Source of the DNA: Clostridia bacterium
GTDB lineage: Bacteria; Bacillota; Clostridia; Christensenellales; Aristaeellaceae
Length of the DNA: 40,429 bases
Assembly: GCA_017476605.1 (NCBI GenBank)
Contig: JAFUZM010000141.1
Coordinates: 1-40,429 of the forward strand
Direction of reading: 5' to 3'
In this document: positions 21,444-40,429 of the stretch, in pieces
Position numbering within the stretch: the first letter of the stretch is position 1
Layout of the letters: the number at the start of each line of letters is the position of its first letter
Position numbers and translations under genes: made by a program
Notes under the pieces: model-generated
Seen by the model: the letters and a program-made list of their open reading frames with translations, nothing else
Databases searched by the model: none
Told to the model about the DNA's origin: nothing

Positions 21444-21475
21444 CGCATGTGAATCAAATTCATGATCCACATGCG
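21444..21475 (-). terminator. Terminator after the DUF2798 gene
   Basis: An 8-bp stem, CGCATGTG/CACATGCG (21444-21451 and 21468-21475), is followed on the minus strand by TTTTTGC. It ends the operon coming from the peptide importer side. Confidence 0.7.
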
Positions 21476-21490
21476 AGGCATTGTATTAAG

Positions 21491-21952
21491 TTATCCGGCG
21501 ATTTTCCTTGCCAGACGCAGTGCTGACCGCTGGGTAATAAGACTGACAATAAAGCAGGAAATCCACACCGGACCAATCATCTCAAGGAAACCGCCGGGAA
21601 TACTGGACAGAGGCATGCCGCCAAGTAAGCAGGCCGTGAACCAGTGCATCACCACCGTCATGATCGTGCAGAAGATGGTGTTCACCACCAGATTCACGAG
21701 GATATCAAACGTCCAGGTGCCTTTCTTTGCACCGCACTTTTTCGCGAAGGCAAAGCCCAGGGAATCCGTTGGGATAAAGAAGGCAATCAAAAAGGCGATG
21801 AAGTAGGAAAAGCAGAAGCTGATCGCCATGCTGCCCCATTCAAAATGCGTCATGTGACCATGGCGAATGTTCACCCATTGGGCCACAAAGCTCATGGTCA
21901 GGGAGATCGGCAGATTCATCAGCAGGGATTTAACGACTTTGAATTTATTCAC
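21491..21952 (-). CDS. DUF2798-type small membrane protein
   Basis: A 153-residue protein. The GTG at 21952 is preferred because GGAGG lies 8 nt before it; the ATG at 21967 has no ribosome binding site. Two DUF2798-like units are visible, each a pair of helices. The first runs PISLTMSFVAQWVN to FIAFLIAFFIPTDS. The second runs LVVNTIFCTIMTVVMHWFT to GPVWISCFIVSLITQRSALRLAR. Most relatives have one unit of about 75 residues, so this looks like an internal duplication. Function is unknown. It follows another small membrane protein gene by 77 bp and is the last gene before a terminator. Confidence 0.75.
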   Translation of the reverse strand: MNKFKVVKSLLMNLPISLTMSFVAQWVNIRHGHMTHFEWGSMAISFCFSYFIAFLIAFFIPTDSLGFAFAKKCGAKKGTWTFDILVNLVVNTIFCTIMTVVMHWFTACLLGGMPLSSIPGGFLEMIGPVWISCFIVSLITQRSALRLARKIAG

Positions 21953-22029
21953 TTTGGAAGCCTCCATCCGCAAGATGTTCTGAAAACAATTCGACAACGA
22001 TCTGTGGGACCGGAAGAGCATCGGGGCAA

Positions 22030-22506
22030 TTATTCCGGTTGTTTCATTTCAAAGACGGGCAATGTCCGGTAAAGCTTATACACAAAAAACGAGCATACAC
22101 CGGTACCAGAGAGAAGCAGGAGCAGCAGTGCATCCAGCGGACCTGTCCAGTTCCGGATGCAGGACACGACCGCGGCAATGACGGCCACAAGGATCAGTAG
22201 CATATGAAGAATGCAGGGCAGGCGGATGAAATGATCAATCCCTTCAAACTCCCTTTGGTACATATGCTCCTTGGCCCGGTAAAACCGAACCACACCGACG
22301 AGTTCCGCAGCAAGCGCAACCAATGCCGCCGTAGCGGCAAAGGAAACCCAGTTGTGTCTTGTCACGCCGGTCGGAATCACACCGCAGGCGATGGAGATCA
22401 TCAGGTTGACCACTGTCAAACCCAATAATCTCCGTTTGACCTCTCGGATTTCGCCCTCCGGGGCACTCCATCCATACCAATTTGTGTTCGTGATGAACCG
22501 GGGCAT
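22030..22506 (-). CDS. Hypothetical four-helix membrane protein
   Basis: A 158-residue protein, not assigned to a family. A soluble N-terminus (MPRFITNTNWYGWSAPEGEI) precedes four hydrophobic segments: about 28-46, 52-75, 97-116 and 124-146. The C-terminus is short and polar. The start has an AGGTGG site and lies 14 bp after the amidohydrolase stop, so the gene is almost certainly cotranscribed with it. Its position in the hydrolase operon suggests a membrane partner or transport accessory role, but nothing in the sequence proves this. Confidence 0.7.
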   Translation of the reverse strand: MPRFITNTNWYGWSAPEGEIREVKRRLLGLTVVNLMISIACGVIPTGVTRHNWVSFAATAALVALAAELVGVVRFYRAKEHMYQREFEGIDHFIRLPCILHMLLILVAVIAAVVSCIRNWTGPLDALLLLLLSGTGVCSFFVYKLYRTLPVFEMKQPE

Positions 22507-22520
22507 GATGCCACCTCACT

Positions 22521-23564
22521 TTACAGGTGATACAGTCTTTCGGCGTTTCCACCCAGAATCTGACTCTTTTCCTCCTCGGAAATCTCCAGACCGGATACAA
22601 AATTTGCGCCCTCGAGCAGCCAGACTGGCCGGACAGGATAACTGGTTCCGAACAGGATATGATCCGCCCCCAGCACCCTTACCGCACATTCCAGCTGTTC
22701 CTTACCCCAGGGCTGTGCATGGCTCATTTCAAAGAAAATATTGTTATGCAGCTGCTCCACAACCAATTCATTGTCATCCTTGAACCGGCTGACCGCTTCC
22801 TTGACCTTGGGCTTCTTGGGGAACCACAGGCTGGCATAGGCAAAGAAGCCACCGCCCAGCATGGAATGCACCAGCTTCACATTGGGGTATTTGGTAAAGA
22901 ACCCGCCAAACAGCTCCCGCCCGATGGCCGTTGCCTGGTCAATGCAGCGCCCATAGCTGCGGCGCAGATTGGTATAGGCGATCAGGCTGTCGTACTGCAC
23001 CGGTACAGGGGTATGGTGCACATAGCAGGTGACACCCCGCTCATTCAGGTAAGCGAAGAACGGCGCGAAGGCTTCATCATCCAGGTATAGGTTGCCGTAA
23101 TGCGCTGACAACTGCAGACCACCGAACCCCAGTTCATCCAGGCAGCGATCAATTTCCCTCATGACAGCGGGCGTTCCCTGCGGCGGCACAACACCGAGGG
23201 CGGCCATGCGGCCCTGGCTCTTTTTGACATGCGCTGCCATACCGTCATTGAACAGACGGCACATATCAAGGCTCATCCATTCCTGCTGGCAGGAAAGCTT
23301 CAGGACCGCCTTGTCGACGCCGGCCTTGTCCATATCGCTCAGCTGCTTTTCAAGGAGATAATCTCCCTGAACGTAGTTGAGGTTTTCGCTTCCAACCGGC
23401 TTTTCAATCACATACTGTCTGAGGCCGCTTTCGGGGTTTTCCTTGAGGTATCCCTTGATTCCATACTGAACGGGAATCTCAGAAAGGAACTTTTCCGCCA
23501 GTTCATCATTGGTAAACAGCTCTTCTGGAAACCAATACAGGTTGGCGTCGATCACTTTGCTCAT
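22521..23564 (-). CDS. Amidohydrolase-2 family protein lacking the canonical HxH motif
   Basis: A 347-residue TIM-barrel protein starting at ATG 23564, which overlaps the upstream gene's TGA (ATGA). The C-terminal features fit the ACMSD/amidohydrolase-2 family, which includes aromatic-acid decarboxylases and lactonases: YVHHTPVPV, KYPNVKLVHSMLGGGFFAYASLW and a final ADHILFGTSYPVRP. In this last element the usual GSD(Y/F)P has become GTSYP. The N-terminal strand, which normally carries IDxHxH, reads VIDANLYW, so both metal-binding His are replaced (Asn8, Tyr10). Either the metal site is rebuilt or the protein is not a classical metal hydrolase. It is translationally coupled to the metallo-beta-lactamase-fold gene. 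Confidence 0.85.
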   Translation of the reverse strand: MSKVIDANLYWFPEELFTNDELAEKFLSEIPVQYGIKGYLKENPESGLRQYVIEKPVGSENLNYVQGDYLLEKQLSDMDKAGVDKAVLKLSCQQEWMSLDMCRLFNDGMAAHVKKSQGRMAALGVVPPQGTPAVMREIDRCLDELGFGGLQLSAHYGNLYLDDEAFAPFFAYLNERGVTCYVHHTPVPVQYDSLIAYTNLRRSYGRCIDQATAIGRELFGGFFTKYPNVKLVHSMLGGGFFAYASLWFPKKPKVKEAVSRFKDDNELVVEQLHNNIFFEMSHAQPWGKEQLECAVRVLGADHILFGTSYPVRPVWLLEGANFVSGLEISEEEKSQILGGNAERLYHL

Positions 23565-24541
23565 GATACGCACCGTCCTTGCTTTACTTGATGATCAAAA
23601 ATTTTGTTGATGTCGTATACGATGGCACACGGCTCCTCGCCATAGATGCGCTTGGTCGTTTCCTGTTTTTCATTCCAGCGTACATCCTCAATCGCACCGT
23701 CACTGCCCTTTTTCTGATTCTTGGGGCCGTCACCGGGATGGGGCTGCCTGCGTTTCCACACAATGCGTCCCTGGTCATCCGTCTGTTGCCAGTTGTTGAA
23801 AGGCGGATCCTCCCGAGGCACACCCTCTGCGCCATGGAGCACCGCCTGGCAGTTGTCGTAGAGTTTCCTCACGATCTCCGTCTCTGCCTTGCCCGGTCCT
23901 CCCCATACAGCATCGTAATCCTTGCGATACGGCAGGAGCTTTTCACTGAGCCTTGCCCAGTTTTCCACTGTGGTGTTAATAGGCTTACCAAAGGGCATTC
24001 CGTATTCGTCTCCGGTAAACAGAAGACGGCCCACCTTATCAAGGATCACAATGCTGCCCACAGCATGATCCGGCATTTTAAAGACCAGAAGGTCGCGCCC
24101 CTTGAGAGGAATGGTGTCGCCATCCTCTACAATCTGGACCTCATAATTTCTCGGGAAATAAATCCCGTCAAAGCTTGGGAATGGCTGGGTTGCCAGTGGA
24201 ACGGACTCCGCCGCCATGTAGGCCAGATCGAAATAGCCGTCGTTTGCAGTATGGTCGAAATGATGATGGGTATTGATAATACGGGGCACATCACAGCCAA
24301 TCAGATTTTTGCAGTATTCCCGGATATTACCCGCACCGCAGCCGCTGTCGATCAGGATGGCATCGCCATCCTCGCCCTCAAGCAGATAGGAAAAGTCCCC
24401 GTCAGAGAGAATCTGCCAGGTCTTTGGTGCGATTTCTTTGGCCCGGTAATATGGCTCGCTCATGGGCGTGCGGTTGCCCTCCTCGTCCTCCAGCAGGATG
24501 TTGCTTTTGCTGGAAAAATCAAATGGTTTTACATCGCTCAT
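23561..24541 (-). CDS. Metallo-beta-lactamase-fold hydrolase
   Basis: A 326-residue protein starting at ATG 24541 (MSDVKPFDFSS); the longer in-frame start at 24580 lacks a ribosome binding site. The di-metal signature HxHxDH is THHHFDH (His92, His94, Asp96, His97). The later ligands are probably in MPDHAVG (His) and FTGDEYG (Asp). No signal peptide is seen, so it is cytoplasmic. It lies 120 bp downstream of the importer's last ATPase gene and overlaps the amidohydrolase start by 4 bp. This suggests that both hydrolases act on the imported substrate. The exact reaction is unknown; esters, lactones, thioesters and amides are possible in this fold. Confidence 0.88.
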   Translation of the reverse strand: MSDVKPFDFSSKSNILLEDEEGNRTPMSEPYYRAKEIAPKTWQILSDGDFSYLLEGEDGDAILIDSGCGAGNIREYCKNLIGCDVPRIINTHHHFDHTANDGYFDLAYMAAESVPLATQPFPSFDGIYFPRNYEVQIVEDGDTIPLKGRDLLVFKMPDHAVGSIVILDKVGRLLFTGDEYGMPFGKPINTTVENWARLSEKLLPYRKDYDAVWGGPGKAETEIVRKLYDNCQAVLHGAEGVPREDPPFNNWQQTDDQGRIVWKRRQPHPGDGPKNQKKGSDGAIEDVRWNEKQETTKRIYGEEPCAIVYDINKIFDHQVKQGRCVS

Positions 24542-24567
24542 GGTCTTGTCCTCGTCTTTCAAAAACT

Positions 24568-24607
24568 CAGGGGAAACCATTCTTGAAGCAAAAATGGTTC
24601 CCCCCTG
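24568..24607. promoter_or_regulatory. Intercistronic hairpin before the metallo-beta-lactamase-fold gene
   Basis: CAGGGG and AACCATT (24568-24581) pair with AATGGTT and CCCCTG (24593-24607) across a small internal loop. There is no T-run, so it may be a processing or stability element inside the operon. Confidence 0.3.
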
Positions 24608-24661: not shown

Positions 24662-25630
24662 TCAGAGAATATCCTGATTCAGTTCTCTGGCCCGGCAGCA
24701 GGAAATGTAGTGATTCGGAAGGATTTCCTCCAGCTGCTGAGGCTGTTTGCAGGCATCCGTCGCATAGGGGCAGCGGGCGGCAAAGCGGCAGCCCGGCTTG
24801 GGATCAATGGGGCTGGTGATTTCGCCCTGCAGCTTGATGCGCTCATGCGGATGGTCGATATCCGTGCTGGGGATGGCCGACAGCAGAGCCTTCGTATACG
24901 GATGCAGCGGCTTTTTGAACAGCTCCTTGGCGGGGCTGGTTTCAACCAGCTGCCCAAGGTACATGACGCAGATGTCATCGCTGATATGGCGCACAACGCT
25001 CAGGTCATGGGTGACGAACATGTAGGTGAGTCCCTGCTTTTCCTGCAGGTCCTGCAGCAGGTTCAATACCTGGGCCTGAATGCTGACGTCAAGCGCGCTC
25101 ACCGGCTCGTCGCACACGATGAAATCCGGGTTCAGGCTGAGTGCCCGGGCAATGCCCACGCGCTGACGGCGACCGCCGTCCAGCTCATGGGGATAGGCGT
25201 GACGCAGACGCTCATCAATACCTACCAGCTTCATCAGCTCGTCGGTCTTCTGGTCGATCTCGTCCCGTGTCTTGTACCGCTTACACAGCTTTAAGGGCTC
25301 ACGGATCACGTCCTCCACCGTCTGACGGGGATTGAGAGAGGAATACGGATCCTGGAAAACGATCTGCATCTTCTCGTTGATCTCATGCATCTGCTTTTTG
25401 TCCACATGGGTAATGTCTTTGCCATTCATGAAAATCTGCCCGTCGGTGGACTCGAGAAGATGGATGATGGTGCGGCCCAGTGTACTCTTGCCGCAGCCGG
25501 ACTCACCGACCACGCCCATGGTCTTTCCCTTCTCAATCTTGAAGGAGATGTCATCCACAGCGTGCAGTGTGCCCTTGGGGGTGTTGAAATACTTTTTGAG
25601 GTGCTTGACCTCGATCATCGGCGTGCTCAT
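24662..25630 (-). CDS. Peptide-type ABC importer ATPase, DppF/OppF-like
   Basis: A 322-residue ATPase with Walker A GESGCGKS (42-49), signature region LDGGRRQRVGIARAL (150-164), Walker B IVCDEP (171-176) and the C-terminal oligopeptide-transporter domain with CRFAARCPYATDAC. The signature has Asp151 where most ABC proteins have Ser, a variant found in some DppF-type ATPases. Its ATG overlaps the stop of the DppD-like gene (ATGA). It pairs with that ATPase to energise the importer on the cytoplasmic face of the membrane. Confidence 0.94.
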   Translation of the reverse strand: MSTPMIEVKHLKKYFNTPKGTLHAVDDISFKIEKGKTMGVVGESGCGKSTLGRTIIHLLESTDGQIFMNGKDITHVDKKQMHEINEKMQIVFQDPYSSLNPRQTVEDVIREPLKLCKRYKTRDEIDQKTDELMKLVGIDERLRHAYPHELDGGRRQRVGIARALSLNPDFIVCDEPVSALDVSIQAQVLNLLQDLQEKQGLTYMFVTHDLSVVRHISDDICVMYLGQLVETSPAKELFKKPLHPYTKALLSAIPSTDIDHPHERIKLQGEITSPIDPKPGCRFAARCPYATDACKQPQQLEEILPNHYISCCRARELNQDIL

Positions 25631-26625
25631 TTCCGGGCCTCCTTTTCCTTGGCAATTTCAGCCAGGCGGCAGCAGCGGCACATATGGCCTCCGCCGATAT
25701 CCTTAAGCTCAATGTGATCCTTCTTGCATTCTTCGGTGGCATAGGGACAGCGGGGATGGAAGGCACATCCCTTGGGCAGATCAGCGGGGTTCGGCGGCAG
25801 GCCCTCAATCGGCGAAAGCCGCTCCACATCGCTGTTCAGATCCGGCAGCGAGCCAAACAGGCCAATGGTATATGGATACTGGGGATTGTGGAAGATCTGC
25901 TCCTTTGTGCCGTATTCCATGATCTCACCGGCGTAGATGACCGCCACCGTATCACAGACTTCGGCCACAATGCCAAGGTCATGTGTGATCATGATCATGG
26001 AGGTATTGAGCTTCTGCTTGAGGTCATTGATCATATCAAGGACCTGTGCCTGGATGGTCACGTCCAGAGCGGTGGTGGGCTCATCAGCCAGCAGGAGCGT
26101 CGGACTGCAGGCCAGCGCCATGGCGATAACCACGCGCTGTTTCATGCCGCCGGAGAACTGATGCGGATATTCATAGTACCGCTCACCCGGGATACCGACC
26201 ATCTCAAGCATCTTCTTGGCCTTTTCCGTAGCCTCATGCTTTCCGCAGTGTTCATGCAGATGAATGACCTCGGCAATCTGCTCACCGACGCGCATAATGG
26301 GATTGAGCGCAGTCATGGGGTCCTGGAAAATCATGCTGATTTCCTTGCCCCGGATCCGCTGCATTTCCTCTTCCCGGATGCGCAGCAGATCCTTGCCCTC
26401 AAATTCGATTTCGCCATTGGGCACGCGGGCCGGGGGCTCCGGCAGTATGCGCAGAATCGCCCTTGCAATGGAGGTTTTGCCGGCGCCGGTTTCGCCGACC
26501 AGTCCGATGGTCTTTCCTTTTTCAAGATCGAAAGAAACGTGATTGACGGCGTGGATGACCTCGCCCTCGGAGGTGTACTCCACGGACAGGTTTTTGACGG
26601 ACAAAAGGACATCTTTATTTGCCAT
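25627..26625 (-). CDS. Peptide-type ABC importer ATPase, DppD/OppD-like
   Basis: A 332-residue ATPase with Walker A GETGAGKT (44-51), signature FSGGMKQRV (157-165), Walker B LLLADEP (177-183) and the C-terminal CAFHPRCPYATEEC motif of oligopeptide-transporter ATPases. The start has a GGAGG site, 16 bp after the stop of the DppC-like gene. It is the partner of the DppF-like ATPase. Confidence 0.94.
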   Translation of the reverse strand: MANKDVLLSVKNLSVEYTSEGEVIHAVNHVSFDLEKGKTIGLVGETGAGKTSIARAILRILPEPPARVPNGEIEFEGKDLLRIREEEMQRIRGKEISMIFQDPMTALNPIMRVGEQIAEVIHLHEHCGKHEATEKAKKMLEMVGIPGERYYEYPHQFSGGMKQRVVIAMALACSPTLLLADEPTTALDVTIQAQVLDMINDLKQKLNTSMIMITHDLGIVAEVCDTVAVIYAGEIMEYGTKEQIFHNPQYPYTIGLFGSLPDLNSDVERLSPIEGLPPNPADLPKGCAFHPRCPYATEECKKDHIELKDIGGGHMCRCCRLAEIAKEKEARK

Positions 26626-26641: not shown

Positions 26642-27520
26642 TTAATTCTTCAGTTTCGGGTCCATGGCATCGCGCAGACCGTCGCCCAGCATATTGAGGC
26701 ACAGCACGACGATCATGATGGCCAGGCCGGGGAAGATGCACAGGTGCGGATACTTGGTAATCATGGACTTACCCTCGCTCAGCATTGCGCCCCATTCCGG
26801 CGTCGGCGGCTGGACACCCAGGCCAATGTAGGAAAGGGAGGCCGCCTGGAGAATCGTGTTGCCGATGCCCATGGTGACCGAGACGATGACCGGAGCGATG
26901 GAGTTGGGCAGAATGTGAGAGGTAATGACCCGCCACTTGGAGCAGTTGATCTTTTCCGCTGCCTCAATGTATTCCTGCTTGCGAACCGTCAGAATGGAGC
27001 CGCGGAGCAGACGCACCGTCATGGGGATACCACCGATGGACAGGGCCAGGATGGTATTTCCGATTCCGCTTCCAAGTGCTGCGGAAATGGCGATGGAAAG
27101 CAGCATGCCCGGGATGGCCTGGATAATATCCAGTATGCGCATCACGATGTTGTCCACCTTACCGCCGTAATAGCCGACCAGTGAACCCAGTAACACGCCA
27201 ACCAATGTGGAAACCAGGGTGCTCATGAGGCCCAGCCAGAGAGACGCCCGTGCACCGTACATGATACGGGAGAGAATGTCACGGCCCATGCCGTCACAGC
27301 CGAACCAGTGCTGCGCACTGGGAAGTGCATAGCGGTCTGCCTTGCTGGTCTTGGCATAGTTATAGGGGGTGATGTAAGGCGAAAGAATGGCCATGAGGAT
27401 GAGCAGCAACAGGACAACCAAGCCAACCATGGCGACTTTGTTTTTGCGAAGGCGGTGCATCACCTGGCCAAACTGGCCCTGACGGCGATTGCGAACGCCG
27501 GCATCAATGGCTTTCTGCAT
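26642..27520 (-). CDS. Peptide-type ABC importer permease, DppC/OppC-like
   Basis: A 292-residue permease. It has the N-terminal OppC-type segment and first helix (MVGLVVLLLLILMAIL), the linker SAQHWFGCDGMGRDILSRIMYGARASL typical of DppC, and the EAA loop IEAAEKINCSKWRVITSHILPN. The C-terminus is WGAMLSEGK...GDGLRDAMDPKLKN, as in the family. An AGGAGG site overlaps the stop of the DppB-like gene. Confidence 0.94.
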   Translation of the reverse strand: MQKAIDAGVRNRRQGQFGQVMHRLRKNKVAMVGLVVLLLLILMAILSPYITPYNYAKTSKADRYALPSAQHWFGCDGMGRDILSRIMYGARASLWLGLMSTLVSTLVGVLLGSLVGYYGGKVDNIVMRILDIIQAIPGMLLSIAISAALGSGIGNTILALSIGGIPMTVRLLRGSILTVRKQEYIEAAEKINCSKWRVITSHILPNSIAPVIVSVTMGIGNTILQAASLSYIGLGVQPPTPEWGAMLSEGKSMITKYPHLCIFPGLAIMIVVLCLNMLGDGLRDAMDPKLKN

Positions 27521-27523
27521 AGC

Positions 27524-28495
27524 TTAGGCGCCTCCTTTCGCGGTATTCTTAATCTTCTTTTTGCCTTCATACTGCGCCTTGATGCGCGGATCCACGAAGG
27601 CATACACGATATCCACCAGCAGCATGATCAGGCTGAAAATGAGGCCCAGAATCAGGACGCCGCCCATAACGACGGGATAGTCGCGGCTGTTGATGGCGTC
27701 GGTCATGTACCGGCCAACGCCCGGGATGGCGAACACGTTTTCAATGATAACGGTGCCGCCCAGCATCATGCCCATGCCGTTGCCGACGATGGTGATGATG
27801 GGGATCAGGGCATTGGGCAGTGCATGCTTGAACAGCACGGTTCTGCTGTTGAGGCCCTTGGCTTTGGCCGTAATGATGTAATCCGAACGGATGACCTCCA
27901 GCATGGAGGAGCGGGTGTGACGCGCCTGAGACGCGATACCTGCAAAGGAGTTGGCAATGCAGGGCAGGATGAATGAGGCGATGCCATTGGATACGCCGCT
28001 GGTGGGCAGCCATCCAAGGTTCACCGCGAAAATCAGAACCAGCATCAGGGCCAGCCAGAAGGCCGGAATGCTGACGCCCACCAGTGCGAGGAACATGCTG
28101 ACGCGGTCCCATACGCCGTTATGATGGGTCGCCGCCATGATGCCAAGCGGCGTGCCGATGAATACCTGCAGCGCCATACACAGAAGAGCAATGACCAGGG
28201 TGTACTGCATGCGCTCCATCAGGCCGGCAAACACGGAGGTGCCGAACTTGTAGGAGGTGCCCAGGTCAAACTTGATAAAGGTCTGGTACAGATACCGTCC
28301 CAGGCGGACGATGTACGGATCATTGAGGCCCATTTCCTCGCGCTTGGCGGCCAGCTCCACTGCCGTGGCACTGGGGCCCAGCAGGCTCTGCGCCGGATCG
28401 CCGGGACAGATGTACATGATGGAGAAGATCAGGATTGCAATGCCCAGCATGACCGGGATCATCCAGAGCAATCGCTTTCCGATATATCTGATCAT
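27524..28495 (-). CDS. Peptide-type ABC importer permease, DppB/OppB-like
   Basis: A 323-residue permease. It begins MIRYIGKRLLWMIPVMLGIAILIFS, with CPGDPAQSLLGPSAT following, both standard DppB features. The EAA loop is ITAKAKGLNSRTVLFKHALPNALIP and the C-terminus is YAFVDPRIKAQYEGKKK. AGGAG lies 9 nt before the start. A terminator-like hairpin at 28528-28558 separates it from the binding-protein gene, which should lower permease levels relative to the binding protein. Confidence 0.95.
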   Translation of the reverse strand: MIRYIGKRLLWMIPVMLGIAILIFSIMYICPGDPAQSLLGPSATAVELAAKREEMGLNDPYIVRLGRYLYQTFIKFDLGTSYKFGTSVFAGLMERMQYTLVIALLCMALQVFIGTPLGIMAATHHNGVWDRVSMFLALVGVSIPAFWLALMLVLIFAVNLGWLPTSGVSNGIASFILPCIANSFAGIASQARHTRSSMLEVIRSDYIITAKAKGLNSRTVLFKHALPNALIPIITIVGNGMGMMLGGTVIIENVFAIPGVGRYMTDAINSRDYPVVMGGVLILGLIFSLIMLLVDIVYAFVDPRIKAQYEGKKKIKNTAKGGA

Positions 28496-28527
28496 AAAGC
28501 GGTTCTCCTCTCGGTTGGTTTAGAAAA

Positions 28528-28558
28528 GAGCGCTGCGGCTACGTTTGCCGCAGCGCTC
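28528..28558 (-). terminator. Internal terminator between the binding-protein and permease genes
   Basis: A 12-bp perfect stem, GAGCGCTGCGGC / GCCGCAGCGCTC, with a 7-nt loop is followed on the minus strand by TTTTCT. It lies after the second in-frame stop (28592) of the binding-protein reading frame. Partial read-through to the DppB-like gene is expected. Confidence 0.8.
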
Positions 28559-28708
28559 TCCTGTTTTTCATTTACGCTGGTTTCGTTTGAATCAATATTC
28601 GCAGGCACCGGGCAGAATCTGTCCACGGAAGCAGGTTGCAGCCTTGGAAACAACGGTGGTATGGGCCAGGTTGTTGACCTTGGATACGAGGCCGTATTCA
28701 TAGCACTG

Positions 28709-30103
28709 CTACTTCAGATACTGATGGAACGCATCCATGTTCTCGGGGGAGTTGTCGTTGACAGCCGCCTCAATCAGGGACTGGAGGGTCTCATCTGCCA
28801 CATGGCCGACGGTCTTGCCGTAGACCTGATCGCGGGCATCCAGAGTGAGCTTCCACACGTTGGTCAGCAGGTTGGAGGATCCGCCTTCGTCCAGCATGAT
28901 GTCCCACTCGCCGGAGTTCTTCTCGTCGTATTTGTAGGTGCCAAACAGGGCATTGTCATAGCCGATCAGCTCAACATTGATGCCGAAATCGCCGAGTGCG
29001 GCCTGGATGGTGGTGACGATCTTGGTGTTGTCATCTGCAACGTTGTAGAGCAGACGATAGGTCTTGCCGGCAACGCCTGCTTCGTCGATGAGCGCCTGAG
29101 CCTTGTCATAGTCATACTCGTAGTATTCCTCGTCGTTCCATTTCTCGACGAAATCCGGATACTTGTTGTTGCCGATGGTCTTGGCATGATAGCCGATGCC
29201 GTCGAATGCGAACGCGATGATGTCCTCTACGTCTACGGCATAGGAGATCGCCTGGCGCTCTGCAGCGCTCGGGATGGAGTCATAGTTGTAAATCAGGTAC
29301 TTGGTGGTGTTGTCGGGAATCTGGGTCACGTCAAAGCCTTCGACGCCCATGAAATCAGAGATGTAGGAGCCGTCGATCGCAGCAGAGATGTCGATTTCCT
29401 TGGTCTTGAGAGCATTCACAAGCTGTACCGGATCAGGGATGATCTTGAAGGTGATTTCATCCACGTTGTGCTTGGAGGTGCCGACAACCAGTTCGTCCTT
29501 CTGCCAATAGTTTTCGTTGCGCTTATAGGTGATGGCGGAGCCGGTCTTGTAGTCAACAACCTGATAGGGGCTGGTGGTAATGGGATCGGTTGCCATCTTG
29601 TCAGCAGAAGCCTCATAGGCAGCCTGGGTAACGATGGGGCATTCCATAAGGAGAGACTCAAGATCGCCGGCAGCCAGAGCGGTGAAGTGGAAACGGGCCA
29701 CATAATCGCTGAGAACCTCAACGCTGTCCACGGAGCTCAGCTTGGGCAGGTTGCCATCCGCCTTCGCGGTGTCAAAGCAGAACTTGATGTCACTCGCGGT
29801 CAGCTTGTTGCCGGCCTGATCCACGATGTAATCATAGATCTCAACGTCGTAGGTCAGATCGTCAACAGGGGTCAGTTCCTTCATCAGGCATCCGACGAAA
29901 TTGTCGCCGTCTTTAACCATCAGCATTTCGTAGGTGGTGAACAGGATACCAATGCGGCCAAGGCCCATGCCCTGGAAAGGCCCGATGTTGCCGGGATCGC
30001 CGGCAAGGCCAACGACAACGGACGCGCCCTGATCAGCAGATGCGAAACTTGCCATGGCCAAAACCATAATCAGAGCCAGAACCAAAGATAAGAACTTTTT
30101 CAT
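28709..30103 (-). CDS. Family-5 peptide-type solute-binding protein, with an in-frame amber codon near its C-terminus
   Basis: A 464-residue reading to TAG (28711-28709). The signal peptide MKKFLSLVLALIMVLAMASFASA has no lipobox cysteine. The mature protein shows the family-5 markers GLGRIGILFTTYEMLM, LTASDIKFCFDTAK, SPYQVVDYKTGSAITYKRNENYW and RQAISYAVDVEDI. After the TAG the same frame continues for 38 codons, starting QCYEYGLVSKVNNL and ending FRGQILPGACEY, to TGA at 28594-28592. It stays open with protein-like composition right up to the terminator, and would give 503 residues, closer to the family's usual length. A GAG-to-TAG or CAG-to-TAG change is the simplest explanation. The ligand may be a peptide or another small solute. 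Confidence 0.88.
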   Translation of the reverse strand: MKKFLSLVLALIMVLAMASFASADQGASVVVGLAGDPGNIGPFQGMGLGRIGILFTTYEMLMVKDGDNFVGCLMKELTPVDDLTYDVEIYDYIVDQAGNKLTASDIKFCFDTAKADGNLPKLSSVDSVEVLSDYVARFHFTALAAGDLESLLMECPIVTQAAYEASADKMATDPITTSPYQVVDYKTGSAITYKRNENYWQKDELVVGTSKHNVDEITFKIIPDPVQLVNALKTKEIDISAAIDGSYISDFMGVEGFDVTQIPDNTTKYLIYNYDSIPSAAERQAISYAVDVEDIIAFAFDGIGYHAKTIGNNKYPDFVEKWNDEEYYEYDYDKAQALIDEAGVAGKTYRLLYNVADDNTKIVTTIQAALGDFGINVELIGYDNALFGTYKYDEKNSGEWDIMLDEGGSSNLLTNVWKLTLDARDQVYGKTVGHVADETLQSLIEAAVNDNSPENMDAFHQYLK

Positions 30104-30201: not shown

Positions 30202-30230
30202 AGTATAATAATTTCGTTAAGCCGGATCAA
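30202..30230 (-). promoter_or_regulatory. Promoter of the peptide-type importer operon
   Basis: On the minus strand TTGATC (30230-30225) and TATACT (30207-30202) are separated by 17 bp, about 100 bp upstream of the binding-protein start. The -35 box lies 4 bp from a 26-bp dyad. Confidence 0.7.
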
Positions 30231-30234
30231 ACCG

Positions 30235-30260
30235 TTTTTCGTGGTTATTGTCGCGAAAAA
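30235..30260. promoter_or_regulatory. Putative LysR operator upstream of the importer operon (site 1)
   Basis: TTTTTCGTG-N8-CGCGAAAAA is an inverted repeat with one mismatch. The same architecture and position relative to the -35 box recurs at 31596-31621, beside a LysR gene. A 23-bp segment covering the right arm (30247-30269) matches 31608-31630 at 19 of 23 bases. Confidence 0.65.
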
Positions 30261-30268
30261 TGGGATAA

Positions 30269-31501
30269 TCATTGTCTCAGCAGTGCGGCTGCCTCTTTGA
30301 CCAGCAGTTCAGCCGCCCCTGGGGCAAAGGGCGAATTGATCGCCTCATACATATACCGGTCATACGCGCTCTGATCGGCCATATATTTGGCTCCGCCGTT
30401 GACCATGGTCGCCACCAGCGTCACCGGATAGGTGCTGAATGCCTGAAGCTGCCTGAGCGTCGGGTAGGTCAGCTCAGGTCTCACCCCGATAATGGCCAGA
30501 TCCCCCAGTGCAAAGAGTTCGATGGTCTGTTCCTTTTCCCCCTCCAGTTCCCATGCACAGGAATGGGTGGGTCTCAGCTCCCGCAGATTGCGGTTCATTT
30601 TCTTGGCCGGTGCATAGAAGGGACGGAAGGCCGTCCGGACCGTTCCCTCAAGTGTCCTGCCGTCTTTTTCCAAAGCGGTCAGTGTCTCCTCCGCCAATGT
30701 CTTCCCCAGCGTCTCCGCCAGAGGGATTCCGGCCTCATGGAGATCAATTTCGGCATAGCCGTTTTGCCCATCCGGAGCGTATCCCTTCGCCCGTTTGATG
30801 GGCGCCTGATCTCCCGCCGCGCCGATCATGAACATCACGGCAGCGCCAGGAAACTGCTTTTCGAGTTCAGCACAGGCAATCCCCGCCAGATCTCCGGATA
30901 CGCATTTACCCTCTGCCGCACCGGTACCATCCAGGATGGAGGACTGCACATTGGCGTGGAGCAGCAGCGCCTTGACCTGCTCTCCCTGTGTCACCTTAAG
31001 CACACTCAGCGTTTTGTCGCTGGGACCGCTTCCGCCGCAGCCGATCCACCAGCCCTCAGGCAGCTCGATGTCCCGGCTGGCAATCACACTGCTTTCGCCC
31101 TGATACAAACGTAGCTCGCTCTCCGCTGCCTCCTGCTTGGCCTGCCAGGCTGCCGCGCGGATGGCGTCGTACAGCGTCCGCTGCAGCATCGTGCGCTTTT
31201 CCTTCTCTTCCTCTGTTTTAATGGCAACATCCGGCAGGATATGCGGCGCAGAAAACGTATGTGTTGCCGCTACCCACACCTGTGATTTCCCAATGTCCAG
31301 CAGGATCGCCGTTTCCTTCTTAATTCGCGCACATTCCTCATCCGTAAGTGAGGTCATTTCAATGGACACCAGTGCGAACGGACAAGCCTCCGCAATGTAC
31401 AGCACCCGTACATGGAGAGGATGTACCTCCCTCACAAATCCCTCTGTCGGGAAAAAACCTGCAGGAAACTCCATTTGGGAGCGTCCAATTCCAATTTTCA
31501 A
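30269..31501 (-). CDS. Neutral/alkaline ceramidase-like protein (catalytic domain only)
   Basis: A 410-residue protein. The TTG at 31501 is chosen because AGGAGG lies 8 nt before it; upstream ATG codons have no ribosome binding site. It resembles the N-terminal part of neutral ceramidases (PF04734): ALVSIEMTSLTDEECARIKKE, WVAATHTFSAPHILPD, FMIGAAGDQAPIK and ATMVNGGAKYMADQSAYD. Characterised ceramidases are about 650-750 residues and secreted. This one lacks a signal peptide and the C-terminal domain, so it is probably a cytoplasmic hydrolase with a different substrate. It is divergent from a LysR gene and its promoter carries the 26-bp dyad. Confidence 0.8.
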   Translation of the reverse strand: MKIGIGRSQMEFPAGFFPTEGFVREVHPLHVRVLYIAEACPFALVSIEMTSLTDEECARIKKETAILLDIGKSQVWVAATHTFSAPHILPDVAIKTEEEKEKRTMLQRTLYDAIRAAAWQAKQEAAESELRLYQGESSVIASRDIELPEGWWIGCGGSGPSDKTLSVLKVTQGEQVKALLLHANVQSSILDGTGAAEGKCVSGDLAGIACAELEKQFPGAAVMFMIGAAGDQAPIKRAKGYAPDGQNGYAEIDLHEAGIPLAETLGKTLAEETLTALEKDGRTLEGTVRTAFRPFYAPAKKMNRNLRELRPTHSCAWELEGEKEQTIELFALGDLAIIGVRPELTYPTLRQLQAFSTYPVTLVATMVNGGAKYMADQSAYDRYMYEAINSPFAPGAAELLVKEAAALLRQ

Positions 31502-31561
31502 TGTCACCGCCTCCTGCATACTTGTTTCATTAGGTATACGATAAAGATTACCGACAGGAAA

Positions 31562-31591
31562 ATTATACCGGGAGCCGTTTTTAGAAATCAA
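31562..31591 (-). promoter_or_regulatory. Promoter of the ceramidase-like gene
   Basis: On the minus strand TTGATT (31591-31586) and TATAAT (31567-31562) are separated by 18 bp, about 60 bp upstream of the TTG start. Confidence 0.65.
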
Positions 31592-31595
31592 ATCG

Positions 31596-31621
31596 TTTTT
31601 TGCATCCATTGTTGCAAAAAA
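31596..31621. promoter_or_regulatory. Putative LysR operator in the divergent control region (site 2)
   Basis: TTTTTTGCA-N8-TGCAAAAAA has perfect 9-bp arms. It lies 4 bp upstream of the ceramidase gene's -35 box and 47 bp upstream of the LysR gene's own -35 box. It shares arm sequence, spacer length and -35 distance with site 1 at 30235. Confidence 0.7.
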
Positions 31622-31668
31622 TGAGACAATTCACCATTGTCTGTATCTCCCCCTCCGTTTTTAGACAA

Positions 31669-31697
31669 TTGACATTTTCTCTCTTTCGCGGTACAAT
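31669..31697 (+). promoter_or_regulatory. Promoter of the LysR gene at 31741
   Basis: TTGACA (31669-31674), a 17-bp spacer and TACAAT (31692-31697) form a near-consensus promoter. AAAGGAGG precedes the TTG start. Confidence 0.75.
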
Positions 31698-31740: not shown

Positions 31741-32631
31741 TTGGAAATAAAATACATTCGTGAGTTTGTCTCCCTCGCAGAAACAGGCAGCTATTTTGAA
31801 ACGTCCGAGCGTCTGTTCATCACAACCTCTTCCCTCTCCCGCCACATCAAGGCGCTCGAGGATGAACTGGGAATGCCTCTTTTTGACCGTACCACCCGCA
31901 AAGTGGAGCTCAACCGACATGGTCGCCTTTTCCTTCCCTATGCAAAGCAGTTCGTGCAGATTGACGATGAATGCGCCATGGCCTTCGAAGAAGAAGTGAT
32001 GTATTCAAAAGGTGCCATCGGCATTGGCTCCATTCCCATGATGAAGGCATACAACATCAGCCGCATTCTGCAGCAGTACCGCCAGGAAAACAAGAATGTC
32101 CTCATCAATATTCACGAGGCCGATTCCACCCCGCTGGCCGAAATGCTGCGCAAAAGCGAAATCGACTTTGCCTTCCTGCGCAACAAGCACATCTCCGTCG
32201 ATGAGTTTGAAACGATTCCCATCTCCCAGGATCACCTGGTGGCCGTCCTTCCAAAGGCGCATCCTCTCTCTCGCAGGAAAACCATCACCATTGACCTCTT
32301 AAAGGATGAATCCCTGCTGCTGATCAGCAAGAATTCCTTCATGTATCGGCTCTGTACCGATCTATGCCGGGCAGCAGGCTTCCAGCCGAAAGTGGTCTTT
32401 ACGAGCCAGCGTGCGGAAAATCTGGTGGAGCTGATCGGCCAGGGCACCGGCATTGGTCTGCTCATGAGCAAGCCCGTGGCCCCCATATTGCCGGACAATC
32501 TGACACTTGTCGAGATCGAGCCCCGGATCACCACCACCGTCTTTCTGGCATATCAGAAGGGCCGCAAATTCAATCCCGCCTGCAAGCGGTTTCTGGACCT
32601 GGTAAAGTCGTTCCCCTTTGAGGAAGGATAA
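31741..32631 (+). CDS. LysR-type transcriptional regulator (first of three)
   Basis: A 296-residue regulator. The TTG at 31741 is chosen because AAAGGAGG lies 7 nt before it and the protein then starts at the usual LysR position (EIKYIREFVSLAETGSYFETSERLF). Helix-turn-helix residues are about 17-36 (ETSERLFITTSSLSRHIKAL), followed by PLFDRTTRKVELNRHGRLFLPYA. A LysR substrate-binding domain occupies the remainder. It is divergent from the ceramidase-like gene. Two copies of a 26-bp dyad, at that gene and at the importer operon, are its likely targets. Confidence 0.93.
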   Translation: MEIKYIREFVSLAETGSYFETSERLFITTSSLSRHIKALEDELGMPLFDRTTRKVELNRHGRLFLPYAKQFVQIDDECAMAFEEEVMYSKGAIGIGSIPMMKAYNISRILQQYRQENKNVLINIHEADSTPLAEMLRKSEIDFAFLRNKHISVDEFETIPISQDHLVAVLPKAHPLSRRKTITIDLLKDESLLLISKNSFMYRLCTDLCRAAGFQPKVVFTSQRAENLVELIGQGTGIGLLMSKPVAPILPDNLTLVEIEPRITTTVFLAYQKGRKFNPACKRFLDLVKSFPFEEG

Positions 32632-32673: not shown

Positions 32674-34326
32674 TTATTCCGCCGCGACCATCGCGTCAAG
32701 GTATGCTTCCACCTGGAGGAAGCAGAAGTCGGGATATCCGTGGCCTGCAGGGCTGATCTTGTCAATGCCAAGATAGAAGTCCACGTCCGCAATGCCCAGC
32801 TGTTCCTGCATATAGCGGCTCATCAGGTAGGCCATCATGGAGCCCACGTCGCCGTCCATGGTGGAATTGTTGAAGCGCCAGTGCCTTGCGATATCCGCCT
32901 TCTCTTCGCCGGTCAGGTAGGTCATGCAGGCCATCATCTTAACCAGATCCTGCTTGCCCTCGCTGTATACACCGGTATCCGGCTGTGTGTACGCGTCAAC
33001 CAGTCGTGCCGCTTCCTCACTGCCCTCCCCCGCCATCTTCTTAAGGACATCCAAAAGAGAGGCGGAGAAGTGCGCACCGCCAAACAGCTTGGCCTCCCAG
33101 CTCCGGCTTGCCTCTGTATCAAAGCCCATGATGGATTTGCTGCGGGTCATGAAACTGGCAACAAAGGCTTCCATGCTGTCCGCCACTACCTTGCCGTCCA
33201 CAAGGGAGATTCCCTCATATGCACCCGCAAAGCCCTCTGCATCCACATACTGTTCCTTGTCAAGCCAGGTTGTGGTATACACGTCAAGTGCTTCATTGAT
33301 TGCAGCCAGATATCCTTCCTTGAAGGTAGCTGTATCAAAGCCAAGCTCGCCAAGATACTGTTCAAAGGCAGCAATCAGCTCCTTCTGCAGCGCCATCTGG
33401 AAATCGTCAAATGTCCGGTCTCCGCCATCCGGTCCCATCTGATGGTACTGTGTTTCGGTGGAATGCAGGTATTCATAGGCCATATCAGTCTTGTCCACGT
33501 TGGCAATGGGCGCCTGCACTCGTGCACCATAGATATCATCCGTTGCATCCATGATGGCACCGATCTTTTCAAGATAGGGATTGAAGATTTCCGCATTGCC
33601 GGAGACACCCAGCAGGGTTGCACAGCTGCCGCCTGCACTGCCGCCAACGGCAATGATCTTTCCCGCATCCCCGGGCAGAACCGCATCATTGGCCTTGAGA
33701 TAGCGCACGCCCGCCTTAAGGTCGACGATCTGATCCGGCGCCATGCCGTGTGTTTCCTCAAGTCCCTCGCTGTCCACACCGCGGCTGCCGACGCATACAT
33801 AGATGTATCCGGCCTTTACATAGTCCCCGTAAATGCTGTTTCCTGTCTGGTCAGCATTCAGGTGGATGCCCTTGGTTTCGGTGCCCAGGGTGATGGAATA
33901 GCCTTCCTTATATCCGTCTATGGTATTCTGATAGATGATCGGCGCCGTATTCACGGTATAGGTTGCGCCGTTCAGGTTGGTGAACACCGCTTCCTCATCA
34001 AAGGTCAACGTATACGTGCCGTCGCCGTTGTCCTTTGCTTCCTTCACATACTCTGTGGGAACGTAGATGTCCAGGTGCTGGATACGGGCACTTTCAGGAT
34101 TGGCACAGTACACCACGTTCAAAAGGCCATAGCAGGGATAGACAGAGGCCGTTTCGCCTTCCTTGATCTGTCCCATGGGCGTCATGACTTCAGTGCTGTC
34201 AATGTACACCCACTTATCCATCTGCTTGGCTGCGTCCAGGTCATAGCCGGTCTGTTCCGCCATGGCTGGGATCAGCAACGCCGCCAGCAGCATGGCCATT
34301 ACGATCAGGGCAATCATCTTTTTCAT
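32674..34326 (-). CDS. Secreted alpha/beta hydrolase resembling subtype-B tannases
   Basis: A 550-residue protein with a signal peptide (MKKMIALIVMAMLLAALLIPAMA, cleavage before EQ). The nucleophile elbow is GGSAGGS, with Ser230. An ARHWRFNNSTMDGDVGS segment sits where tannases have a WxxRxGxxDxDT-like motif, so the probable Asp is present but neighbouring substrate-binding residues differ. A GHGYPD segment near the C-terminus may supply histidine. Tannases and related feruloyl esterases split phenolic esters. A plant-derived ester substrate is plausible but unproven. It has no lipobox and no sorting signal. It is divergent from the LysR gene at 34485, with a strong dyad between them. Confidence 0.82.
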   Translation of the reverse strand: MKKMIALIVMAMLLAALLIPAMAEQTGYDLDAAKQMDKWVYIDSTEVMTPMGQIKEGETASVYPCYGLLNVVYCANPESARIQHLDIYVPTEYVKEAKDNGDGTYTLTFDEEAVFTNLNGATYTVNTAPIIYQNTIDGYKEGYSITLGTETKGIHLNADQTGNSIYGDYVKAGYIYVCVGSRGVDSEGLEETHGMAPDQIVDLKAGVRYLKANDAVLPGDAGKIIAVGGSAGGSCATLLGVSGNAEIFNPYLEKIGAIMDATDDIYGARVQAPIANVDKTDMAYEYLHSTETQYHQMGPDGGDRTFDDFQMALQKELIAAFEQYLGELGFDTATFKEGYLAAINEALDVYTTTWLDKEQYVDAEGFAGAYEGISLVDGKVVADSMEAFVASFMTRSKSIMGFDTEASRSWEAKLFGGAHFSASLLDVLKKMAGEGSEEAARLVDAYTQPDTGVYSEGKQDLVKMMACMTYLTGEEKADIARHWRFNNSTMDGDVGSMMAYLMSRYMQEQLGIADVDFYLGIDKISPAGHGYPDFCFLQVEAYLDAMVAAE

Positions 34327-34437: not shown

Positions 34438-34466
34438 CCTATTTATTCCATTTTGGAATAAATAGG
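34438..34466. promoter_or_regulatory. 13-bp perfect dyad, probable LysR operator
   Basis: CCTATTTATTCCA-TTT-TGGAATAAATAGG has perfect 13-bp arms. It lies 11 bp upstream of the esterase's -35 box and 18 bp upstream of the LysR start. That position suits activation of the esterase and autorepression of the regulator. Confidence 0.75.
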
Positions 34467-34484: not shown

Positions 34485-35345
34485 ATGGAAACAGAATACT
34501 TGCGTCAGTTCGCCCTGCTGGCAAAGGAATGTCACTTTCAGACCGCCGCAGAGCTGCTGTACATCAATCAGTCCACGCTCTCCAAGCACATTGCGGCTCT
34601 CGAAAAGGAGCTGGGACAACCGCTCTTTTACCGGACCACACGCCAGGTACAGCTGACGGATTTCGGCCGCGAATTTCTGCCGTATGCCGAGAAAATCATT
34701 GGCATCGTCAATGACTGCAACACAAACCTCATTTCAAAATACAAAGAGAGCACCCCGGCGTTACATGTGGGCGTTTCACCCTTTGTCTCCATCCGCCGCC
34801 TGATGGAGGCAAAGCTGTCCTGTCAGGACATCATGCCGGAAATTGCCTCCATGGTCTTCACGGAGACCACCTCCGCAAAGCTGCGTGCCGGGCTCAGTAA
34901 CGGGCGATTCCATCTGGCCATCGACGGCATCAGTCCCTTGTGGGAAACCGGCGATATTGCCGCCGTTCCTTACACACAGGATCATCTGTGTGTTCTGCTT
35001 ACGGCGGATCATCCGTTCGCTCAAAGGGAGACGCTTTCATTGCACGAACTCGGTGATCTTCCTTACATTCATCTTTATACGGAAACCAATACCAGTCCCT
35101 TTCTCAGCGAGCCCGTCCTGGTAGCCGATACCGTCCCCCAGGTGCTGAGTGCGGTGAGCGAAGGGAAAGGATACAGTATCCTTCCCTATGAACGTATCCA
35201 GAAGCACTTGCCGGAAAACGTTAAGGCCCTCCGCCTGACCCCATCTCCCGACCTCCAGTTCTTTGCCTATTATCTTCGTCATGCGCCGCGCAGCGAAGTC
35301 ATGGCCGCCCTTCTCAAGGTCCTTGCAAATGAACAAAGGCGCTGA
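34485..35345 (+). CDS. LysR-type transcriptional regulator (second of three)
   Basis: A 286-residue regulator starting at ATG 34485 after AAAGGTGG. The N-terminal helix-turn-helix reads HFQTAAELLYINQSTLSKHIAALEKELG, followed by PLFYRTTRQVQLTDFGREFLPYAE, very similar to the first LysR in the window. The co-inducer domain follows, with VGVSPFVSIRR near 89-99. Its TGA lies inside the palindromic terminator. It is divergent from the tannase-like gene and probably controls it through the 13-bp-arm dyad. Confidence 0.93.
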   Translation: METEYLRQFALLAKECHFQTAAELLYINQSTLSKHIAALEKELGQPLFYRTTRQVQLTDFGREFLPYAEKIIGIVNDCNTNLISKYKESTPALHVGVSPFVSIRRLMEAKLSCQDIMPEIASMVFTETTSAKLRAGLSNGRFHLAIDGISPLWETGDIAAVPYTQDHLCVLLTADHPFAQRETLSLHELGDLPYIHLYTETNTSPFLSEPVLVADTVPQVLSAVSEGKGYSILPYERIQKHLPENVKALRLTPSPDLQFFAYYLRHAPRSEVMAALLKVLANEQRR

Positions 35346-38549: not shown

Positions 38550-38621
38550 GCATTTCACTCCTTTTCATTTCTGAGGCTTTGGCCTTCTGGCAACTGCGCA
38601 GCCAGATAAACCATCACCTTT

Positions 38622-39730: not shown

Positions 39731-40429
39731 TTATCCCAGTCGCTGCTCAAACAGCCATGCCCGAATGGGCTCAAAGAGATACGCCCATTTCCAGGTAGAC
39801 ATATGATGCACCGCCGGGAAGATGTGCGCACCGGGCAGCAGGACACTGTCTCCGTCCAGCCAGGTGAACTGGATATTGGCATTTTGCTCCAGCACATCCC
39901 TGCAGAACGCCGCTTTCGTTTCCTCATCTGCCTTGGCATCCACATGGCCTCTGGCCACCTTGCCGCCCGCTTTTTCGACCGCTTCCATGCACTGTCCCAT
40001 AATGGGGAATGCCCGGCCGTCATGCTCGGATACCATGATCCACACATGCTCATCCTTAATGGCCCCCATGCGTTCCGGATCCCATTGTCCGGCCGTCAGG
40101 AAGCAGCCTGCAAAAAAGTGGGGATGGGTAATCAGCAGTTCACAGAGCATCATGGTCCCCATGGACTGTCCGGTACCATAGATGCGTGTCTTGTCAATAT
40201 TGTACTTTTCGCACACGCTCTTAATGAGGGCAATGGTCGCCTCGGCTGCCCAGCCTACGGTGTAATCATCGTGTGCGGACTTTTCACCGTATTGCGGTGC
40301 CAGGACAAAGCAGGGACGTTTTTCCTGTTCCTTGTCGTCTGCCCACACCAGTGCACCAATGCCCTGACGCAGGGTATAATCCGGTTCCTCCGAAACGGAG
40401 CCCATATCGTGCATGAACACCACCAGCGG
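39731..40429 (-). CDS. Alpha/beta hydrolase (PHB depolymerase/feruloyl esterase-like), N-terminus beyond window
   Basis: The last 232 codons are visible and the frame stays open to the window edge (PLVVFMHDMGS), so the start lies outside. The nucleophile elbow is GTGQSMGTMM, the probable acid is in VSEHDGRAFP and the histidine in FPAVHHMSTWKW. The LVVFMHDMGS segment is the oxyanion-hole strand typical of poly(3-hydroxybutyrate) depolymerase-like and CE1-related esterases. Any signal peptide would be in the missing part. It ends 84 bp before the third LysR gene on the same strand. Confidence 0.82.
   Translation of the reverse strand, partial: PLVVFMHDMGSVSEEPDYTLRQGIGALVWADDKEQEKRPCFVLAPQYGEKSAHDDYTVGWAAEATIALIKSVCEKYNIDKTRIYGTGQSMGTMMLCELLITHPHFFAGCFLTAGQWDPERMGAIKDEHVWIMVSEHDGRAFPIMGQCMEAVEKAGGKVARGHVDAKADEETKAAFCRDVLEQNANIQFTWLDGDSVLLPGAHIFPAVHHMSTWKWAYLFEPIRAWLFEQRLG

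Follow-up and report, generated by a model that had tools for sequence, protein, structure and literature searches.

The window (the whole stretch of DNA analysed here, 40,429 nucleotides from a Clostridia bacterium) contains a gene cluster in which a LysR-type regulator gene diverges from the gene for a ceramidase-like protein, referred to below as cerL. Downstream of cerL and on the same strand lie genes for a peptide-type importer, a metallo-beta-lactamase (MBL)-fold hydrolase, an amidohydrolase-like protein and two small membrane proteins (Table 1). The regulator has the make-up of its class, with an N-terminal HTH_1 domain and a substrate-binding domain in 296 residues, where about 300 are expected, and the MBL assignment by PF00753 is accompanied by the motif THHHFDHT in the sequence. 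For cerL the TTG codon is the more likely start because GGAGG lies just 3' of the alternative ATG.

Table 1. Position of the genes, promoter elements and hairpins in the window; scores are those of the weight matrix described in the text.
Feature	Position	Strand	Remarks
Terminator-like hairpin	21444..21475	-	Terminator scan; follows second membrane protein gene
Small membrane protein (by eye)	21491..22021	-	No family above cut-off
Small membrane protein (by eye)	22030..22506	-	No family above cut-off
Amidohydrolase-2 family protein	22521..23573	-	PF04909 1.1e-28; 4icm 7.8e-24
MBL-fold hydrolase, HxHxDH intact	23561..24580	-	PF00753 8.5e-19; glyoxalase II 1xm8
Importer ATPase 2	24662..25630	-	Named by sequence and position; orthologues in relatives
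Importer ATPase 1	25627..26625	-	Named by sequence and position; orthologues in relatives
Permease, DppC type	26642..27520	-	PF00528, PF12911
Permease, DppB type	27524..28495	-	PF00528, PF19300
Hairpin, perfect 13-bp stem, between binding-protein and permease genes	28527..28559		
Solute-binding protein, family 5	28709..30103	-	PF00496
-10 box TATACT, importer operon promoter	30202..30207	-	
Operator-promoter module, importer operon	30225..30269	-	23-bp dyad 30247-30269; -35 TTGATC 30225-30230; score 63.9
Dyad 1 of the sequence-only reading	30235..30260	-	
Ceramidase-like protein CerL, divergent Ceramidase_alk relative	30269..31501	-	TTG 31501 likely start; ATG 31519 possible
-10 box TATAAT, cerL promoter	31562..31567	-	
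Operator-promoter module, cerL	31586..31630	-	23-bp dyad 31608-31630 (predicted recognition site); -35 TTGATT 31586-31591; score 51.7
Dyad 2 of the sequence-only reading (9-bp arms, 8-bp spacer)	31596..31621	-	Overlaps right half of recognition dyad and A-tract before -35
Sigma-70-like promoter of LysR gene, TTGACA-17-TACAAT	31669..31697	+	Promoter scan
LysR-type regulator (TTG start), Thr29 in HTH	31741..32631	+	PF00126 2.8e-17, PF03466 2.8e-38; 296 aa

The hairpin at 21475-21444 is a possible end of the importer operon and, as it precedes an aldo-keto reductase gene, that gene may fall outside the operon. A further terminator-like hairpin (24605-24569) precedes the MBL gene, and the hairpin between the binding-protein and permease genes passed the terminator rule on the plus strand only, its minus-strand tail TTTCTAAACC failing it; this hairpin may reduce expression of the operon genes that follow it. 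Hairpins lying inside the operon could shorten its transcript. The terminator scan gave 19 terminator-like sites in all against 12.5 (sd 3.8) in shuffles, and single hits are therefore weak evidence.

Two shared operator-promoter sites

An earlier, sequence-only reading of this DNA had picked out two dyads with 9-bp arms, each 4 bp before a TTGATY -35 box with a good -10 box. It can be seen that all of these elements are present: 8 of 9 arm positions pair at 30235-30260 and 9 of 9 at 31596-31621, the spacer is 8 bp in both, and on the minus strand the dyads stop 4 bp 5' of TTGATC (30230-30225) and TTGATT (31591-31586), respectively. The -35 and -10 boxes are separated by 17 bp for TTGATC-TATACT (importer) and by 18 bp for TTGATT-TATAAT (cerL). 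The identity of 19 out of 23 positions claimed for a shared block was likewise reproduced for the best shared 23-bp block, and when the two upstream regions were shuffled the maximum over 30 pairs was 17. Thirteen dyads of the 9+8+9 kind with no more than one mismatch occur in the window, so that such a dyad alone is not rare; the evidential weight of the observation is in the sharing between the sites and in their conservation, rather than in the dyad itself. A 17-bp degenerate core taken from the two sites matched exactly at these two places only in the organism's own genome (5.04 Mb), with no one-mismatch occurrence among the matches listed, in a search that is partly circular because the pattern was derived from the sites themselves. 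This 17-bp form, CATT-N9-AATG, had been taken as the whole recognition site and was dropped in that role, as CATTTTT is unconserved beyond the close clade.

The importer-operon module starts on the last base of the cerL stop codon. It is very improbable that the shared block is simply a strong constitutive promoter, brought in by recent duplication of an upstream region and working without a regulator. Both blocks do have good -35 and -10 boxes and the two 45-bp modules are 33/45 identical; however, the conservation sits in a 23-bp dyad placed 16 bp before the -35 box, the stretch between the -35 and -10 boxes barely matches, and searching the genus gave no match to the module in 24 genomes.

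Conservation of the operator and its association with a LysR gene

The conserved unit is a gapless 45-bp promoter module, made up of a 23-bp dyad centred at about -62/-63, 16 bp and a TTGATT-like -35 box. Nine sites from the window and its genus relatives align without a gap to the consensus ATTRT-N9-YGCRxxAAT-N13-GGTTTGAT, some of them with single departures. When an expression built from these sites was run on the window and on four relatives' loci (L042, L035, L043 and L044; L041 and L045 were left out), it found nine places and no others, lying 5' of cerL in five out of five and 5' of the binding-protein gene in four out of five; in genome G007 the binding-protein gene follows about 80 bp after cerL. 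A weight matrix was then derived from 24 sites in 15 of 30 further loci, which had been drawn from a named genome collection with HTFSAPH among the search patterns. Fourteen of the sites precede cerL and ten the binding-protein gene, the window was excluded, and a site at L049:2503 was kept out because it precedes neither. This matrix, which is not wholly blind because its sites were chosen by an expression first drawn from nine sites of which two were from the window, and in which some loci are near relatives of one another, scored the window sites at 63.9 (importer) and 51.7 (cerL). The next scores in the window were -5.5 and -8.6, from the same sites on the opposite strand, and then -19.5; in 200 first-order Markov sequences of 40 kb each the per-sequence maximum was -18.1 on average and 1.4 at most.

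As proposed earlier, a search of relatives did find the operator kept at the cerL and importer genes, but the 9+8+9 pairing by which it had been defined is poorly kept. The arms pair at 8-9 of 9 positions in the window as against 0-4 of 9 at seven sites of genus relatives; with closer species added, 14 of 25 non-window sites pair at only 0-5 positions. All 14 retain the 23-bp dyad and the -35 box, and the 23-bp dyad has 5 to 9 of its 11 positions paired at every one of 27 sites, the two in the window included. Since its arms pair poorly at 14/25 sites whereas the 23-bp dyad pairs at all 27, the 9+8+9 dyad, although genuine in the close clade, is a secondary feature and does not hold up as the conserved operator; it is the right half of the 23-bp dyad joined to the A-tract before the -35 box. 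No site was found by the expression in 15 of the 30 further loci (L055, L061, L062 and L064-L075). A looser palindrome search of 11 site-less loci found one, in Lucifera butyrica, with the same spacing to a TTGATT box, before the amidohydrolase-cerL genes and beside its LysR gene.

We compared gene neighbourhoods in the same relatives. CerL relatives with 42-59% identity occur in four of 28 other genomes of the genus (G007, G017, G022 and G023); in all four the LysR gene is divergent from cerL and the binding-protein gene follows cerL, and where the contig is long enough, in three of them, the order runs on to the permeases, ATPases, MBL and amidohydrolase genes. Among the 30 further loci the order LysR, divergent cerL, importer, MBL, amidohydrolase is whole in nine (L047, L049, L052, L053, L056, L058, L059, L060 and L063); in L046 only the LysR end is missing, and a number of the remaining loci are broken by contig ends. 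In L055 cerL, MBL and amidohydrolase genes stand in a row, with the importer arranged differently, a distant LysR (27%) and no site. These results bear out the clustering that was expected from the window, and the expected co-presence was found as well. At the thresholds used (E<=0.001 for CerL, E<=1e-50 for LysR, E<=1e-60 for the amidohydrolase, <=3 mismatches for the operator), the same five of 29 genus genomes, the window's own (G000) included, hold cerL, LysR, amidohydrolase and operator, and the other 24 are without all four, most of the 29 being incomplete drafts. A reversed control pattern gave 0/29. The chance of one such perfect agreement is 1 in 118,755, but the co-occurrence is in part shared inheritance of one island, and the agreements are not independent.

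The position of the module is consistent with a LysR-regulated promoter, in which a recognition dyad near -65 is accompanied by another site at the -35 box. Measured from the predicted start sites, the 23-bp dyads of the window have their centres at about -63 and -62, with a conserved GGTTTGATT at -35; LysR recognition sites are described as usually centring near -65, the activation site lying over the -35 box (PMC12016517), and a two-site tetramer model of binding has been described as well (PMC11739112). Against LysR control count the 15 loci without a site, the absence of strict T-N11-A letters from both window sites, and the promoter of the LysR gene itself, which lies about 40 bp from the dyad without overlap, as placed by a promoter scan that gave 11 promoter-like sites in 13 kb against 9.1 in shuffles. 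We conclude that the two sites are most probably the promoters of one LysR-type regulon under the divergent regulator encoded at 31741-32631, and put the probability of this at roughly 0.88. A LysR tetramer would bind the 23-bp dyad some 62-63 bp upstream of each start site and make a further, weaker contact at the -35 box. The ligand would probably be the imported compound or one of its products; by shifting the protein it would allow polymerase to start transcription of cerL and, independently, of the importer operon, which would run into the MBL-fold and amidohydrolase-like genes, possibly as far as the hairpin at 21475-21444.

An alternative that we regard as unlikely is that the sites are bound by another regulator, either a paralogous LysR or an unlinked repressor acting on the A-tract dyad near -52. 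Candidates for such a role exist: there are 22 first-look LysR candidates in the organism's own genome, one of them at E<=1e-50; G023 has tandem LysR genes beside cerL and G007 a second, unlinked LysR match (E 4e-53), giving each of these genomes two matches at E<=1e-50. The 9+8+9 dyad is also well paired in the close clade, at 6-9 of 9 positions in 11 of the 25 non-window rows. Against this, that dyad is lost at the remaining sites, where the 23-bp dyad and the -35 box are both kept; presence and absence of operator, LysR and cerL are concordant in 29/29 genomes at the thresholds given; and the window's second LysR gene has a different upstream palindrome, ATTTATTCC-N5-GGAATAAAT. Control by the divergent LysR is thus the reading we prefer. 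It makes of two look-alike sequences a mapped regulon whose operator is defined and for which there is a likely regulator, and it would bring the substrate within reach of inducer screening on a reporter.

The regulator and operator can be compared further with LysR regulators of aromatic catabolism such as BhbR1, which share the dyad near -65 and the activation site over -35 (PMC12016517). The window differs from these in having an ATTRT-N13-AYAAT dyad without a strict T-N11-A, positions 6 and 18 being C6/A18 and C6/G18 at its two sites, and in having Thr rather than Gln at residue 29 of the HTH. Nine rows, the window's among them, have Thr at residue 29; the others have Gln, except for His in L065 5350. 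Thr29 goes with operators ending AYAAT (window, L047, L049-L054) and Gln29 with TAAAT (L056, L058, L059, L060, L063), and T-N11-A is present by eye in all six sites of these Gln29 genomes. In a LysR tree from which the His29 row was left out the Thr/Gln change falls on a single branch; the match between residue and operator is therefore one event, giving consistent support and not repeated evidence.

Two other LysR arrangements were noted. The palindrome upstream of the window's second LysR gene (34485-35345, plus strand) lies at 34441-34463, between that gene and a tannase-like gene (32674-34326, minus strand), and these two genes form another LysR-target pair, whose operator is of a similar type. 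The two tandem LysR genes beside cerL in G023 (L042 8953-10807) encode proteins 49% and 67% identical to the window's regulator, the second being the closer.

Altered active sites in CerL and the amidohydrolase-like protein

CerL of the window gave no Pfam match of its own and 0 matches to PF04734 up to E 1; its relatives in L061 and L073 reached 29.4 and 30.0 bits, below the gathering score of 32.1, and that in L066 reached 34.8, above it. A profile of five close CerL sequences (A1) found no solved relative. A profile of 25 aligned rows of the family (A3) matched the neutral ceramidases 4wgk (1.5e-10) and 2zws (2.3e-10), and neutral ceramidases were the only solved relatives at E below 0.01, a distant sequence relation over the catalytic domain. 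The zinc site of neutral ceramidases consists of two His, a Glu and a Tyr. CerL residues H87, E349 and Y379, which align with three of these ceramidase ligands, are invariant in A3, and the remaining zinc His aligns with Q192 (in at least 90% of A3). The HTH motif of the ceramidases is HTF in CerL, the invariance of H87 and F89 coming partly from selection, as HTFSAPH was used as a search pattern. CerL differs from neutral and alkaline ceramidases (PF04734) in its zinc site as well as in family length, about 410 aa. The description of CerL as a truncated cytoplasmic ceramidase-like protein is supported as regards location, no signal peptide being seen by eye; truncation is doubtful, as the stretches matched by A3 are 398-433 aa long across all 25 rows.

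The amidohydrolase-like protein falls within PF04909, and its best solved relatives are LigW, ACMSD and gamma-resorcylate decarboxylase. The absence of an HxH motif, already remarked on from the window, extends to the family, in which N-x-Y replaces it invariantly in the 15 rows of alignment A4. The manganese ligands of LigW are Glu19, His188 and Asp314, with His241 in the site (PMC6031855, PMC8187880). When set against LigW as so described, the window protein keeps His188 as H186 but has S311 in place of Asp314 and M238 in place of His241, and the first-strand ligand motif corresponds to N-x-Y, with N11 for Glu19 assigned by position only since the alignment with solved relatives begins at residue 73-76; all four residues are invariant in A4. 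Because N11 (by position), S311 and M238 differ from the metal-site residues of LigW, decarboxylation by the known Asp-proton mechanism appears unlikely. More distant amidohydrolase relatives without cerL have N-x-H, and the family is found without cerL in G243 and G318. One such relative, 48% identical and with N-x-H (L097 8121-9164), lies without cerL near genes that look by eye like corrinoid methyltransferase genes.

Both proteins are rare across a class-wide draw of 391 genomes (the window's own included), with CerL-like proteins at E<=1e-30 in two and the amidohydrolase at E<=1e-60 in three. The regulation of the cluster is standard LysR control; the altered hydrolase pair is the surprising part. 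These are two subfamilies, extending from Clostridia to Lactobacillales, that would be annotatable as ceramidase and amidohydrolase and yet are without key residues of those enzymes. No description of the cluster was found in the open literature, as judged by titles and the start of abstracts.

Importers, possible cargo and further sites

The partners of the hydrolase pair vary between hosts. Lucifera butyrica, Oenococcus oeni and Enterococcus larvae (L061, L073 and L074) have LysR, the HxH-less amidohydrolase and cerL with a PTS, not an ABC importer, and all three loci have a second Ceramidase_alk relative (the Enterococcus copy by eye). The Lucifera PTS best matches the beta-glucoside family, below the cut-off, and the Enterococcus PTS the lactose/cellobiose family, above it. 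In a Chloroflexi MAG (L062) amidohydrolase-cerL genes lie opposite importer and MBL genes with weak sites (9.1 and 6.1), and a Spirochaetaceae MAG (L072) has importer, LysR and cerL with a site scoring 19.0. One account of this, which we consider possible but doubtful, is that the CerL and amidohydrolase-like subfamilies have evolved together, the metal sites of their ancestors having been rebuilt for a shared new chemistry, for example a new kind of bond cleavage in a plant ester or glycoside. Both would have stayed under LysR control of one kind, and the importers carried with them would be exchangeable: ABC systems of the peptide type in Clostridia, the Chloroflexi MAG and perhaps Spirochaetes, and PTS in Lucifera, Oenococcus and Enterococcus.

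Esterase and glycosidase genes are recurrent neighbours of the cluster, among them subtype B tannases (NF041556) and BD-FAE esterases (PF20434). Tannase_B-like proteins nearby score 205 bits for the window's 32674-34326 and 273 bits in L060, both against a curated cut-off of 300; the window protein differs from NF041556 in falling below this cut-off and has its own divergent LysR and palindrome. An alpha/beta hydrolase gene lies inside the operon in L058, L059, L060 and L063, its product being 48-52% identical to that of the gene at the window's right end, and those of L059 and L063 have an EstA-like N-domain. GH3 genes and, in distant hosts, PTS genes also recur near the cluster. Our best-fitting guess, held tentatively, is that the cargo is a plant-derived ester or glycoside, which esterases, the glycosidase and the cytoplasmic hydrolases might dismantle. 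It is decidedly less probable that the cargo is an N-acyl or sphingolipid-like amide with CerL as the amide-cleaving enzyme. The restriction of solved CerL relatives to neutral ceramidases and the peptide type of the importer would suit an amide, but Gln192 in place of the zinc His and the recurrence of esterase, GH3 and PTS genes around the cluster argue against it.

Returning to the operator, two more sites are present in the organism's own genome, overlapping back to back at 3664-3730 of contig C273 (L091, G000:C273). They lie between a GH3 gene and a gene for a secreted protein 30% identical to that of window 36969-38558, and the GH3 gene is followed by a tannase-like stretch with 33% identity to window 32674-34326. 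In relatives, sites precede genes for the same kind of secreted protein at G023:C50, L049:2503, G017:C134 and G017:C15 (in two pieces), and also a MatE-like gene (G022:C308) and an esterase gene (L047:4810); the window's own copy of the secreted-protein gene (36969-38558) showed no site by matrix scan. As judged by these predicted sites, the regulon extends beyond two operons. Finding the operator beside a LysR gene in relatives, and before the same two genes as in the window, strengthens the proposal of one LysR regulon, but not its limitation to those two operons.

Some further observations concern the surroundings of the cluster. The distant Clostridia L059 (17044-18246) and L063 (12183-13409) have, between the ATPase and MBL genes, an esterase gene (PF18435 plus alpha/beta hydrolase); in the window's operon this place is taken only by the hairpin at 24605-24569. 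Two contigs of the one assembly share, at their ends, 665 bp of an esterase gene at 96% (window 39765-40429 and L091 6715-7379), which could mean that the contigs adjoin, that they come from strain variants or that the segment is duplicated. Among the named records with the cluster, several originate from deer, sheep and goat rumen or omasum.
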